This document shows positions 29,789 to 63,050 of a DNA stretch of 64,000 bases, piece after piece (position 1 is the stretch's first letter; each line of letters begins with the position of its first letter). This DNA is from Myroides marinus. GTDB lineage: Bacteria; Bacteroidota; Bacteroidia; Flavobacteriales; Flavobacteriaceae. Below the pieces are notes generated by a model. The model saw only the letters and a list, made by a program, of their open reading frames with translations, had not been told where the DNA came from and did no database searches. The stretch lies in assembly GCF_900109075.1 (NCBI RefSeq), contig NZ_FNYS01000015.1, forward strand, positions 1 through 64,000. Reading direction: 5' to 3'. A program made the position numbers and the translations under genes.

Positions 29789-30616
29789 TTAAATTATAAA
29801 ATTGATTGGTTCAGGATATCCTTCTTGATCTTTAGAATAACTCTTACTTTTACTGTAGATAATAGAATTAGGTTTAACGCTTTTTGTTAACCATACGTTA
29901 CCTCCGATGACAGTATCATGACCTATAGTTGTATCTCCACCTAATATAGTTGCTCCAGAATAGATAATAACATTATCTTCAATATAAGGGTGTCTTCTAG
30001 TGTTTGCTTTATCTTTTGATACCGAGATAGCACCTAGTGTTACTCCTTGGTATATTTTTACATTTTGCCCTATAACACATGTTTCTCCAACAACAATACC
30101 AGTACCATGATCAATACAAAAATGGGAACCAATAGTCGCCGCAGGGTGTATATCTATACCTGTTTTACTATGAGCATGCTCAGTCCAAATACGAGGAAGT
30201 AGGATGACTTCTTGTGTATGTAGTTGGTGTGCGAAACGGTATATTGCAATTGCGTAAAAACCTGGATAAGCGATATAAACTTCTTGTAAACAAGTAGCTG
30301 CTGGATCATTGTCTAAAATAGCTTGTGCATCTGATTTTAGAGTGAAGAAAATTTCAGGCAATGCATTAAAAAAGTCATCAGCTATCTTTTGAGATTTCTC
30401 TACATTATTGTTTATATTAAAAACAATTGAAAGTAACTCTATTCTTAGTGTAGCTAGGCGAATGTTGATAGACTCTTCAGATAAGTACTTTTTATCCTCT
30501 AATTGAAAAAGGAAATGAAATAGGGTATCTGTAAAGTTCTCTATTCTTTGCTTGTCTAGAAAAGATTGCGAGCTTTCGTTTTGTGTTAGAAGTTCTCTAA
30601 CGAAATCAATTTGCAT
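29789..30616 (-). CDS. cysE: Serine O-acetyltransferase (EpsC type)
   Basis: This enzyme acetylates serine with acetyl-CoA, the first step of cysteine synthesis. The 275-residue protein has a helical N-terminal domain (about 1-140) and a left-handed beta-helix of hexapeptide repeats (about 155-255). The active-site stretch is [21 protein letters not shown], with the catalytic histidine in [18 protein letters not shown] and [11 protein letters not shown] follow. The final isoleucine fits docking into CysK. It is the first gene of the cysE-cysK operon. Confidence 0.92.
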
Positions 30617-30941
30617 GAATTTGTGTAATTTGGGTTAAAGCTATTAGATATATAATTTTGAAAAAGTACAATGAATGTTGCACAGGTAAATTATAGAAAT
30701 AAGTAGCTTTTAATGTTTATTTATTTCTAAAAACCTCTTGTTATATTGATTGTAAAAGGGTTTTGTAATGTAAATGTAAGAATTGTATTAGAAAGGTTGT
30801 AGCTTGTTTAACAAATATTTGATGTTATAATTAGTGATATTTAGATAGGGATCAATATTAGGCTAGTTATGGCAAAGTATCTATTTGGGATACTAGTTGT
30901 TAAAAACGCGTATTTGGATTTTCAACTCTACAAAATTGTTC

Positions 30942-30949
30942 TATCTTTG
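30942..30949 (+). promoter_or_regulatory. Candidate -7 box for the putative RNA
   Basis: TATCTTTG matches the consensus exactly. A TTTG lies at 30913-30916, 25 bases upstream, slightly farther than usual. No coding frame follows. Confidence 0.5.
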
Positions 30950-30955
30950 TTTAAG

Positions 30956-31150
30956 AATTACAAAGGCGAAGTAATTCAATCAGTTATATGTTTTGTTTCT
31001 GAAATAGATTTTTTATTTTAATTTCTTTTGAGCTGGCTACTTAAAAAGGGATTTGGTTTTGTTGTTTTGTTGTTCTATTTCAAAATTTGTGAAACAAAGT
31101 AAAATACATACAAAATAAAGAAGGTTCCTCATTCGAGGAACCTTTTTTTA
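30956..31150 (+). ncRNA. Candidate structured non-coding RNA, about 190 nt
   Basis: A promoter-like TATCTTTG precedes and an intrinsic terminator (31121-31149) closes a stretch without a reading frame. Distant segments can pair: TTGTTTC and TGAAATAG (30993-31007) with CTATTTCA (31075-31082) and GAAACAA (31091-31097), leaving an asymmetric internal bulge. AATTAC/GTAATT forms a small hairpin at about 30957-30976. The size and long closing stem with a bulge resemble 6S-type RNAs; Rfam's 6S-Flavo family would be the first comparison. This is inference only. Confidence 0.4.
31121..31149. terminator. Terminator between the putative RNA and the ClC gene
   Basis: AAGGTTCCTC and GAGGAACCTT with a 4-base loop are followed on the plus strand by seven T. 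The minus side is also T-rich, so it may serve both directions. Confidence 0.85.
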
Positions 31151-31181
31151 TGGTACTAATTAATGTGTTTTTAAGTTTGTA

Positions 31182-32996
31182 TTATTCTAATAGAAGGGAC
31201 TTTAAGTTCTTTCTATAGGCTTCCATAAGTTCTGCTTTTGTGATATATCCTATATATTTCTTTTGATCTTGTACTAGAACATATTCTAAGTGATTTGTCT
31301 CTAATGTTTGCAGGATAATCTTTGTAGAGTCATTTTTAGAAACTATTATAGGTGATTCTACTAAGTCTTTAATAGGAGTAAACTTTGTTTGAAATCCACT
31401 AAATATAACTGGACGTACACTGTCTAGTTTTATTATACCTTCTATTTTGCCATCATGATCAACTATAGGGATAAAAGACTGTTTTGTATTGGCAAAAATA
31501 TCTACTACAGCAGCTGTTGTATGTTGCATAGTCAATGTCTTTATATCATCTTTAATATAGTCTTCTCCTATAATTGTATTTAGAATATTAGAATCTTTAT
31601 CTGATGTAAACACCATTCCTGTAGTTGCAATAGACTTTATGTCCATAGAATATTTCTCCATTTGCTTTGAAATAGCAAAACTAATAGACGAAACAATAAG
31701 TAATGGAACCATTAATCCATAGCCTCCTGTAATCTCTGCAATCAAGAAGATACCTGTTAACGGAGCGTGAAATAAACCACTAATCACAGCAGCCATACCT
31801 ACTACAGTGAAGTTTTGTACTGGGATTTCTTTTATCCCTAAGATTTGTAATAGCTTAGCTAATGAGAAGCCCAAATATGAACCCACAAATAAGGAAGGAG
31901 CAAAGTTACCTCCATTACCACCACTTCCCATGGTTAGACCCACAGCATAAGTCTTGACTAAAGCTGCTCCTGCTACAAATAGAAGTAAGACCCACTGACT
32001 GCTAGAAAAGTCTGCTAATAAAGTGTTCTGTAATATTGCTTGAGGTTTATCACTTGTTAAGATCTTGATACTCTCATATCCTTCACCGAATAAAGTTGGG
32101 AATAGAAATATTAATACAGCTAACATAGAAGCTCCTATCAATGCTTTCTTATATGCTCCAAAGCGCATTGAAGATATATAGTGTTCTGTTTTTCTAAACA
32201 TCCTAGCGTGATATACACAGAAGAATCCTGATAATATACCTAGTAAGATATAATAGACTGTATTACCTGTATCAAAGACTAATTGATTCTTAAACGACAG
32301 AAGAATGTCTTCTTTGATGATTAGGTTGGTTACAATTGTACCAGTAGCAGCAGAAATCATAATAGGAATAAAAGCTGATACGGAAACATCTACCAAGATA
32401 ATTTCAATAGCGAACAGAACCCCTGCTATAGGCGCATTAAATGCTGCAGATACTCCTGCTGCAACTCCACATCCTAGTAAGAGTATTCTATCTTTATAAT
32501 TAAGCTTGTAATTCTGAGCATAATTAGATCCAAATGCTGCACCAGTAATAGCAATAGGCGACTCTAGTCCTAGAGAACCTCCCATACCTACTGTAAGGGA
32601 ACTTGTGATAATCTGAGAATACATTTGTTTGCGAGGCATAATACCTGATTTTTTAGCAACAGCTATCATAATCTGGTATGTTCCTTTCTCTATAGATCCA
32701 TTTAAGAATTTGCGAACTACGAATACTGTTAGTAAGATACCTATAATAGGTAAGATACTATTCATATAAGGTAAGTGAGATATATTATCTATATAAGTAG
32801 CTAGCTTAAATACATTGTGAGCAAAGTATTTAAGAATTGTCACAGCAATAGCTGCAGATGCACCCACTAAGACACAAGAAAGATATAAGAATTGACGATT
32901 AGTCAAGATGGACTTCAGAAAGAACAATATCCCTTCCGAGTATTTAAACACTTGATTAGCGTAATACTTTAATTTCTTTGGATTTCTAATTTTCAT
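31182..32996 (-). CDS. ClC-family chloride channel/transporter with CBS domains
   Basis: This is 604 residues from the ATG at 32996; the frame opens at 33032 but the extra residues (MYKACLLHYFCN) look non-coding. About ten to twelve membrane helices (about 40-440) carry GMGGSLGLESP (the gating-glutamate motif, usually GREGP) and GSGGNGGNFAPSLFVG (the anion-selectivity motif). Two cytoplasmic CBS repeats follow (about 460-600). The conserved glutamate in GLESP suggests proton-coupled exchange rather than a pure channel, but the motif is degenerate. It is 78 bases from acpH on the same strand. Confidence 0.9.
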   Translation of the reverse strand: MKIRNPKKLKYYANQVFKYSEGILFFLKSILTNRQFLYLSCVLVGASAAIAVTILKYFAHNVFKLATYIDNISHLPYMNSILPIIGILLTVFVVRKFLNGSIEKGTYQIMIAVAKKSGIMPRKQMYSQIITSSLTVGMGGSLGLESPIAITGAAFGSNYAQNYKLNYKDRILLLGCGVAAGVSAAFNAPIAGVLFAIEIILVDVSVSAFIPIMISAATGTIVTNLIIKEDILLSFKNQLVFDTGNTVYYILLGILSGFFCVYHARMFRKTEHYISSMRFGAYKKALIGASMLAVLIFLFPTLFGEGYESIKILTSDKPQAILQNTLLADFSSSQWVLLLFVAGAALVKTYAVGLTMGSGGNGGNFAPSLFVGSYLGFSLAKLLQILGIKEIPVQNFTVVGMAAVISGLFHAPLTGIFLIAEITGGYGLMVPLLIVSSISFAISKQMEKYSMDIKSIATTGMVFTSDKDSNILNTIIGEDYIKDDIKTLTMQHTTAAVVDIFANTKQSFIPIVDHDGKIEGIIKLDSVRPVIFSGFQTKFTPIKDLVESPIIVSKNDSTKIILQTLETNHLEYVLVQDQKKYIGYITKAELMEAYRKNLKSLLLE

Positions 32997-33073
32997 ATTG
33001 CAAAAATAGTGTAAAAGGCAAGCCTTATACAAGAGTTAGCTAAATTTGTTTTTATAAAAACTAAAGATAACTC

Positions 33074-61532: not shown

Positions 61533-63050
61533 TTATTGGTTACTGCCTTTTGTTTTATCTATTGTTGATAGCGTTAGTATTGAGCGATATAGTATTTCTA
61601 AGTTTATTTCCATTTCTTCTCTGCTTAGATGACCAAAGCCAAGTCTCATCCCTGTTAGTGTTCTATCTTGATAAAGAATAGTTTTTGGTAAGAATAGATT
61701 ATTCTTTTCACATTCTTTGTGTAGCTGCATTAAGTTAATAGGAACCTTCCATTCTATCCATATAGCTAATCCTCCAGCAGGAAGTTTAAAGGTTACTTGA
61801 TCTCCTAAGAATTGCGTTATTAATTGAGCGAATGTATCACGTCGTTCTTTATAGACCTTAGAGGCTTTCTTTAAATATCTAAATATTTCACCTTCTTCTA
61901 TTAGTTCGTTTAACACTTGCTCCATTACCATATCTCCACGAGGGTCCAGTAATCGCAAGTATTTTTGCATCTCTAACAGAACATTTTCAGGAGCCACTAT
62001 AAAACCATTCTCAAAACTAGGGGCTAACGACTTACCAAAAGAACCTATATATACTACCATTCCTTCGGTATCTACACTGGCTAGTGGTAATACCGAACTC
62101 TTGTCATAATGAAAGTCATAGTCATAATCATCCTCTAGTATGATAAAGCCGTATTTATTAGCTAGATTAAGTAGTTGTACTCTGCGCTGAGCACTCAGTG
62201 TTACTGTGGTAGGATAGTGGTGATGAGGAGTGAGGTAGAGCATTCTTATTTGTTGTGTTTTGCACAGTTGTTCTACTTCATTTACATCTATACCATCCTC
62301 GTCTATAGATACAGTTAATATCTGAGCTCCAGCTTCCTGAAATGCCATATTACTAGAGTAGTAACTAAGGTTCGCCACAATAACTTTATCTTTAGGACTC
62401 AGTAGGACTCTACAGGCGATGTAGATGCTCATCTCTGTGCTTCTAGTTATCAAGACATTTTTACTACTTACGTGTAGTCCTCTAGATAGGTTGAGGTAGT
62501 TAGCCATATTCTTTCTAAAGGAAGTATTGTCTTGATGAGTATTGCTAAGTAGTTTCTTTCTATTGCTCTTTCTCTTTAGGTTCGCGCTGTAAAATGATGA
62601 TAACTGATCTATCTGGATAATTCTACTATCTGTAGTGCCATCTGTAAAAACGTGATCACAATTGCTGATTTCAAGAGGAGAGTCTAATAAGTTACTAGAG
62701 TGAAATGTATATCCAGGTTTAGTAGGATATTGCTCTAAAGCTTTGTAATTAGAAGCATTAGTTCTTTTATGATTAAATGACTTTTTATTAAGCACAAAGC
62801 ATCCCTTGTTTGCCTGCATCTCTATCCATCCTTGTGTAGCTATCTCTTCGAAGGCAGCCACTACAGTATTTCTATTTACTTCTAGTAGACTAGCGATAGT
62901 ACGCGTACCTGGCAATTTGGTTCCTTCAGGTATGAAGTTGCGTTGTATTGCATTGCTAAATTGATTAGCTATTTGCATATAAATTGCTGTAGAAGAGTTT
63001 CTATCAATCTTTATAAAGCTTTGATAAGGTATTTTTACTGGACTAGGCAT
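61533..63050 (-). CDS. MocR-type GntR/aminotransferase fusion regulator (PdxR-like)
   Basis: This 505-residue transcription factor has a winged-helix GntR domain (about 10-80: AIQRNFIPEGTKLPGTRTIA with RNTVVAAFEEIATQGWIEMQ) and a class I aminotransferase-like domain (about 120-495). VVYIGSFGKSLAPSFENGF holds the presumed PLP lysine and LEDDYDYDFHYD the PLP-binding aspartate. PLP-binding MocR proteins control vitamin B6 or amino-acid genes. No B6 gene is adjacent; the divergent neighbour at 63225 is unknown and would be the first candidate target. Confidence 0.88.
   Translation of the reverse strand: MPSPVKIPYQSFIKIDRNSSTAIYMQIANQFSNAIQRNFIPEGTKLPGTRTIASLLEVNRNTVVAAFEEIATQGWIEMQANKGCFVLNKKSFNHKRTNASNYKALEQYPTKPGYTFHSSNLLDSPLEISNCDHVFTDGTTDSRIIQIDQLSSFYSANLKRKSNRKKLLSNTHQDNTSFRKNMANYLNLSRGLHVSSKNVLITRSTEMSIYIACRVLLSPKDKVIVANLSYYSSNMAFQEAGAQILTVSIDEDGIDVNEVEQLCKTQQIRMLYLTPHHHYPTTVTLSAQRRVQLLNLANKYGFIILEDDYDYDFHYDKSSVLPLASVDTEGMVVYIGSFGKSLAPSFENGFIVAPENVLLEMQKYLRLLDPRGDMVMEQVLNELIEEGEIFRYLKKASKVYKERRDTFAQLITQFLGDQVTFKLPAGGLAIWIEWKVPINLMQLHKECEKNNLFLPKTILYQDRTLTGMRLGFGHLSREEMEINLEILYRSILTLSTIDKTKGSNQ

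Follow-up and report, generated by a model that had tools for sequence, protein, structure and literature searches.

GcvB of enteric bacteria is an Hfq-dependent small RNA (sRNA). It pairs with CA-rich targets through a GU-rich region that is highly conserved and lacks structure (PMC3879156, in excerpt). In the Bacteroidota, mRNAs are naturally devoid of Shine-Dalgarno sequences, and A-rich initiation regions, in which the adenines matter, favour translation in Flavobacterium johnsoniae (PMC6847099, in excerpt). Bacteroides is reported in passages of PMC12119571 to be without Hfq, and two of its sRNAs, GibS and FopS, pair through single-stranded seeds; FopS is multi-copy, has a 5′ seed and binds RbpB (PMC11697453, in excerpt). 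In Flavobacterium psychrophilum, deletion of Rfp18 is reported to reduce mRNA levels of two metalloproteases during stationary phase (PMC9723704, in excerpt).

In a stretch of 64,000 nucleotides of Myroides marinus DNA (hereafter the window), the interval of about 30954-31149 is very probably a real and dedicated sRNA gene, and it is conservation and covariation, not folding energy, that set it above chance. Judging from sequence comparison, this is very probably a previously undescribed small RNA whose core (30997-31084) has hardly changed in Myroides and in a few of its relatives, and which probably regulates other genes. The best reading, to which we assign a probability of roughly 0.55, is that of a trans-acting, Hfq-independent sRNA pairing through its GU-rich strand in the manner of GcvB. 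As in GcvB, a GU-rich single-stranded stretch is conserved, here unpaired in a covarying model, and the A-rich initiation regions of the host are possible C/A-rich partners. The likeness is one of proposed mode of action, and it differs from GcvB in that its GU strand lies inside an enclosing helix, its targets are candidates and its host belongs to another phylum. Furthermore, Hfq was not found in any of four genomes searched (five control genomes gave matches), so any pairing is probably Hfq-independent.

Like GibS and FopS, the RNA would be an sRNA of the Bacteroidota with a single-stranded seed, a candidate one in this case. Unlike FopS, it is present in single copy, the candidate seed is internal, and a search for RRM_1 had hits in 0 of 4 genomes (a control Bacteroides gave matches), which makes an RbpB-like partner unlikely. 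With Rfp18 it shares the family and the character of a structured, independently transcribed sRNA, as predicted here. Rfp18 is described as widely conserved in its genus (PMC9723704, in excerpt), unlike the Myroides sRNA, which was found in 15 of 299 genomes of its GTDB genus; this narrow distribution speaks against identity with Rfp18. We count it as a new example of a trans-acting sRNA, although it may be identical with one of the Rfp RNAs of F. psychrophilum. Among the titles and abstract openings listed for open-licence PMC papers on Flavobacterium and Myroides sRNAs, on GU-rich or cysE-linked sRNAs of Bacteroidetes, on flavobacterial structured RNAs and on related genera, no description of it appeared.

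The anatomy of the gene, established in silico, is given in Table 1. An earlier note on this DNA had described a -7 box, a terminator with seven T and two pairs of segments forming a long bulged stem, and all of these were found in place. Indeed, besides the pairing of TTGTTTC with GAAACAA, TGAAATAG (31000-31007) can pair with CTATTTCA (31075-31082), and eight unpaired bases (31083-31090) form the bulge between the two 3′ arms. The terminator reads AAGGTTCCTC-ATTC-GAGGAACCTT, followed by the seven T. The name cysE is that of the earlier note, and we keep it for the gene that Pfam assigns to the hexapeptide transferases; a PALP enzyme gene lies behind it, and on the other side of the sRNA Pfam identifies the gene of a Voltage_CLC protein.

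Table 1. Features of the predicted sRNA gene and its neighbourhood (positions in the window).
Feature	Position	Strand	Remarks
Predicted sRNA transcript	30954-31149	+	about 195-196 nt; start predicted from the position of the -7 box, end from the terminator
Upstream box TATC-N7-GATA-N5-TGTTAAA	30878-30904	+	candidate site for an activator; roughly -76 to -50 relative to the start as predicted
-7 box TATCTTTG (TAnnTTTG, primary sigma type)	30942-30949	+	kept in 19/19 homologs
5′ hairpin GAATTAC [AAAGGCGAA] GTAATTC	30955-30977	+	alone folds at -5.4 kcal/mol
Outer helix, 5′ arm TTGTTTC	30993-30999	+	pairing of the earlier note; read from sequences
Helix P1, 5′ arm TGAAATAGA	31000-31008	+	9 pairs; two-sided changes in 6 (alignment A5) or 5 (A6)
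U-rich 5′ side of internal loop	31009-31019	+	from homolog sequences and conservation bins
Hairpin P2, 5′ arm AATTTCTT..GAG	31020-31032	+	A6 helices 2 and 3: 100% and 97.8% of cells paired
P2 loop CTGGCTA	31033-31039	+	GGCTA invariant in alignments
Hairpin P2, 3′ arm CTT..AAGGGATT	31040-31053	+	alignment A6 covariation
GU-rich strand GGTTTTGTTGTTTTGTTG, two tandem GTTTTGTT	31055-31072	+	candidate pairing or protein-binding site
Helix P1, 3′ arm TCTATTTCA	31074-31082	+	alignment A6 covariation
Outer helix, 3′ arm GAAACAA	31091-31097	+	read from sequences
Intrinsic terminator, 10-bp hairpin and seven T	31121-31149	+	-17.0 kcal/mol
cysE-like gene (hexapeptide transferase by Pfam)	29789-30616	-	divergent neighbour
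ClC-type channel gene (Voltage_CLC and CBS)	31182-33032	-	convergent neighbour; not present everywhere

The note had also held the stretch to be without a reading frame, which was slightly too strong a statement: an ATG frame of 50 codons (30869-31021, plus strand) overlaps the 5′ part of the element, and the other overlapping frames are of 21-31 codons. The overlap of the 50-codon frame is what would speak for a short coding gene or a dual-function RNA, an explanation that we find highly improbable, given that this frame starts upstream of the promoter, that stops break it in L002, L055 and L058, and that the lengths of the homolog cores vary by one or two bases.

The motif TAnnTTTG is common by itself (101 occurrences in the window versus 85.7 expected), and the -7 box carries weight because it is conserved. 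In F. psychrophilum, this consensus was mapped to a box at -12 to -5 (PMC9723704, in excerpt), and the predicted start at 30954 follows from that map. Further upstream, the [T/A]TGTTAAA half of the upstream box was found 45-47 bp before the -7 box in all 19 homologs, with a search expression that was composed after the sequences had been seen. The TATC/GATA half is degenerate in L008-L011, and a TTG was found in the scanned -33 stretch of 9 of the 19 homologs, at varying places. The near-fixed spacing of the box, together with the poor -33 element, points to a promoter that most likely depends on an activator. In the genome of the window, the full promoter pattern occurs only at the sRNA locus at up to 3 mismatches. 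Extending the search to 15 genomes yielded 31 places, 13 of them being the sRNA promoter; the 18 others compare with 11 for a reversed control. Ten places were perfect, eight at the sRNA promoter and two at a second unit in genomes G216 and G242.

At these two places (L165, G216:C27:59591-59662; L177, G242:C1:2361898-2361969), a second perfect upstream box and -7 box precede what is apparently a different short non-coding unit, of about 100 nt and ending in a terminator hairpin. The unit is kept between both genomes, and its convergent neighbour gene differs. That the boxes drive lipoprotein genes was rejected, as these genes are convergent and the short non-coding unit is found there instead. 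In another genome (L186, G020:C126), the same box and a -7-like box stand before a 303-codon lipoprotein-like gene, possibly a further member of this regulon. At L041 (G018) the upstream box is part of a larger dyad, TTTAACA-N5-TATC-N7-GATA-N5-TGTTAAA, which matches exactly on each strand; in L009-L011 this dyad is degenerate.

At the other end of the gene, 15 of 19 homologs (14 by script and L006 by eye) have a terminator hairpin that begins at a distance of 27-35 nt from the end of the core; in L009-L011 the distance is 104-105 nt. For L057 (G242) the script finds a terminator only at 101 nt behind the core; the terminator seems to be interrupted there, shortly after the core, by inserted DNA that looks like the end of an insertion sequence.

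The structure was assessed on alignment A6, which comprises 17 sequences (15 distinct) and was fitted to the structure, and hence favours it. Standard pairs account for 97.0% of its 297 cells, and two-sided changes are seen in 9 of the 20 pairs; neither value was reached by any of 500 shuffles. The covariation score was 0.327 versus 0.220 for shuffles (0/500) and at most 0.129 for slid partners; the number of further pair types was less extreme (6/500 shuffles). The compensatory changes that the earlier note had proposed to look for in relatives are thus present, and its description of a free-standing, unannotated structured-RNA gene is borne out by this strong covariation together with the conserved -7 box and terminator hairpin. 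In the model, P1 (TGAAATAGA with TCTATTTCA) encloses P2 (AATTTCTT..GAG [CTGGCTA] CTT..AAGGGATT), and these helices carry the GGCUA loop and keep a GU-rich strand, GGUUUUGUUGUUUUGUUG, open. This strand, made of two tandem GTTTTGTT with flanking bases, is unpaired in the covarying model. Both it and the GGCTA loop lie in the best-conserved bins (0.96-1.00, 18 homologs); for the strand, agreement with the window is 0.96 in bin 31052-31061 and 1.00 in bin 31062-31071. The strand is one T shorter in L006 and L008.

On the plus strand 288 of 297 cells pair, with 44 G-U and zero A-C, while 244 of 297 pair on the complement. Because of these G-U pairs and the lack of A-C mismatches, we assign the RNA to the plus strand. 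The outer helix was seen in the window, L002, L003, L055 and L058, and is partial or different in the others. The 5′ hairpin, compared in 14 sequences with L006 left out, was seen in L008 and in those Myroides sequences that were compared. It has the same 7-bp stem in L004 and L008 and a longer, changed stem in L007, and is irregular in L005; other hairpins are found in L050, L053, L054 and L061, and weak ones in L009, L010 and L041.

Folding energy alone is weak evidence. The whole transcript folds with a z-score of -2.13 when the terminator is included and of 0.13 and -0.64 when it is not, and the window without the terminator folds no better than shuffles. Among the sequences compared, L008 (-4.21) and L054 (-2.91) are much more stable than shuffles, whereas L006 (0.53) and the window (-0.64) are not. 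For 12 of the 17 core segments, the unconstrained minimum-energy fold recovers at least 8 of the 9 pairs of P1 together with the majority of those of P2. In L005, L007 and L041 P1 was kept and P2 paired otherwise, L011 kept P2 with little of P1, and L009 formed neither. Folding had been another check suggested in the note, and its outcome was divided: the centroid of 30954-31100 has P1, and with it the long stem, as well as P2, but the minimum-energy fold of the same segment has the long stem only in part and that of the full transcript lacks both P1 and the long stem.

6S-Flavo (RF01685) has a long interrupted stem, and the earlier note had linked the element to 6S RNA. Both its size, close to 190 nt, and its long stem with a bulge would speak for 6S RNA or a second 6S copy. 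The long stem is real, but it encloses a second hairpin and the GU-rich strand. The covariance-model scan that the note had called for was adverse: neither 6S-Flavo nor 6S (RF00013) was among the 16 matches of a permissive Rfam scan of 30617-31250, even at E up to 10. The genome's own 6S-Flavo is located elsewhere (G000:C50:34309-34416), where it is the sole match, at 90.7 bits and over the cut-off. With no model match here and 6S-Flavo elsewhere in the genome, 6S was rejected, and we leave it next to no probability. The interpretation of the note was therefore partly supported, in its RNA gene and not in its 6S assignment. The 16 sub-threshold matches were themselves discarded as chance, being far under the gathering scores and most of them reaching into the terminator hairpin. 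No family among the 4227 of Rfam 15 reached its gathering score in the window or in the element of 13 homolog loci; the sole match in these loci was a tmRNA in L010, far from the element.

Loci were gathered by a protein search with the cysE-like neighbour, which gave named Myroides and other Flavobacteriaceae, the named loci nearest to the window being Myroides. When the intergenic region was compared by BLAST with 11 of these loci, 10 (L002-L011) had the core, at 80-94% identity. The match takes in the flanks in L002 and L003; in more distant homologs the main match is the core or little more. The sRNA was not found, by BLAST or by the covariance model, in L015 (Myroides indicus), despite the presence of both flanking genes. 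Between the cysE-like and ClC genes of L015 there is instead a stretch that, judged by eye, resembles a gene for an HxlR-type regulator.

Of the 299 genomes of the GTDB genus, 14 were found to have the core by an exact pattern that was not anchored on cysE. A covariance model built from 7 sequences found it in the 15 mentioned above, the window's own included, with one match each. In an order-level sample 4 of 346 genomes matched, namely G000 (that of the window), G018 and, weakly, G499 and G528 (31.6 and 31.5 bits). A family-level sample searched with a broader model gave 1 of 349, the window's own. These large searches used stricter filters, able to lose weak matches. As far as the samples show, the RNA family appears confined to Myroides and near neighbours. 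A model match within the window at 62228-62282 (19.1 bits, E 0.92) was dismissed as chance; it is a row of alignment A5 and is absent from A6.

In 15 of the 15 genomes found by the RNA model the cysE-like gene adjoins the core in divergent orientation; the ClC gene was found in the 1.5 kb covered beside the core in 11 of them, and L009-L011 keep the core although no ClC gene was found there. The constant presence of the cysE-like gene is what would be expected if the element acted in cis, as a leader or antisense element of that gene or through transcriptional interference between divergent units. Several observations make such an arrangement unlikely: the G-U pairs place the structure on the strand opposite cysE, the element has its own promoter and terminator, its predicted start lies some 340 bp away from cysE, and the cysE leader is a poor pairing partner (rank 50 of 56).

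We searched for pairing partners near gene starts that a simple script had taken (294 and 284) from 800 kb of two homolog-bearing genomes. Duplex energies of the GU strand near these starts were those of shuffled strands (21/40 and 18/40 shuffles had a mean as low), and pattern matches yielded a trend at best, with 51, 39 and 8 of 100 shuffles as high at 3, 4 and 5 mismatches. Exported proteins were not preferred as partners (29/100 shuffled loops), and an apparent excess of them among the best-pairing leaders was discarded, since it was gone against shuffled loops. Long complementary sites in 15 genomes numbered 62, of which 15 are the sRNA itself, versus 70 for a reversed control that is weak, the motif being near-periodic. 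Many of the complementary sites inspected lie in 5′ leaders, but these 20 were hand-chosen, and patterns of this kind are to be expected in A-rich leaders in any case, so that we give this no weight. Tests such as these would miss a regulator that has a few dozen targets.

CsrB sequesters CsrA, and 6S RNA binds RNA polymerase. A protein-binding (sponge) RNA is the main rival to trans-acting pairing, and we regard it as possible, if distinctly the less probable of the two. A protein that is sequestered or guided would in that case land on a site made up of the tandem GUUUUGUU units, the U-rich strand facing them and the GGCUA loop. Such a role would suit a tandem repeat that conserved helices keep open and that hardly varies from end to end, and it would suit the lack of excess of complementary target sites. 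However, two likely single-strand binders, RRM_1 and Hfq, were both found in none of four genomes, with positive controls.

For the trans-acting, pairing sRNA that we prefer, the following course of events can be proposed. Transcription would start at a promoter with a -7 box of the primary sigma type, most likely needing an activator at the upstream box, and would end at the intrinsic terminator, yielding a plus-strand RNA of about 196 nt. This RNA would fold into the 5′ hairpin, the long P1 enclosing P2 with its GGCUA loop, and the terminator hairpin, and P1 and P2 would hold open the nearly invariant GU-rich strand with its two tandem GUUUUGUU units. The GU strand, and perhaps the GGCUA loop too, would then pair with C/A-rich segments of target mRNAs, close to their start codons, and lower translation as the R1 region of GcvB does, here without Hfq. 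For this pairing mechanism of the GU strand, argued by analogy, we consider the chances to be about even. A wider scenario, which we judge doubtful, would make the RNA a regulatory hub of the Myroides clade that is driven by an activator and works without Hfq or RRM proteins, a convergent counterpart of GcvB. In it, the tandem GUUUUGUU would mask the C/A-rich enhancers that replace Shine-Dalgarno sequences and silence a set of mRNAs, and the same regulator would, in two related species, also drive the second non-coding unit (L165, L177).

Myroides includes opportunistic pathogens. The absence of Shine-Dalgarno sequences, together with the failure to find Hfq in four genomes, raises the question of how sRNAs of the Bacteroidota recognise their targets. 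The sRNA is compact and single-copy, its unpaired strand is near-invariant, its promoter is clearly marked and its homologs are numerous, so that it can be tested directly. It would also provide a new RNA family for the annotation of Myroides.
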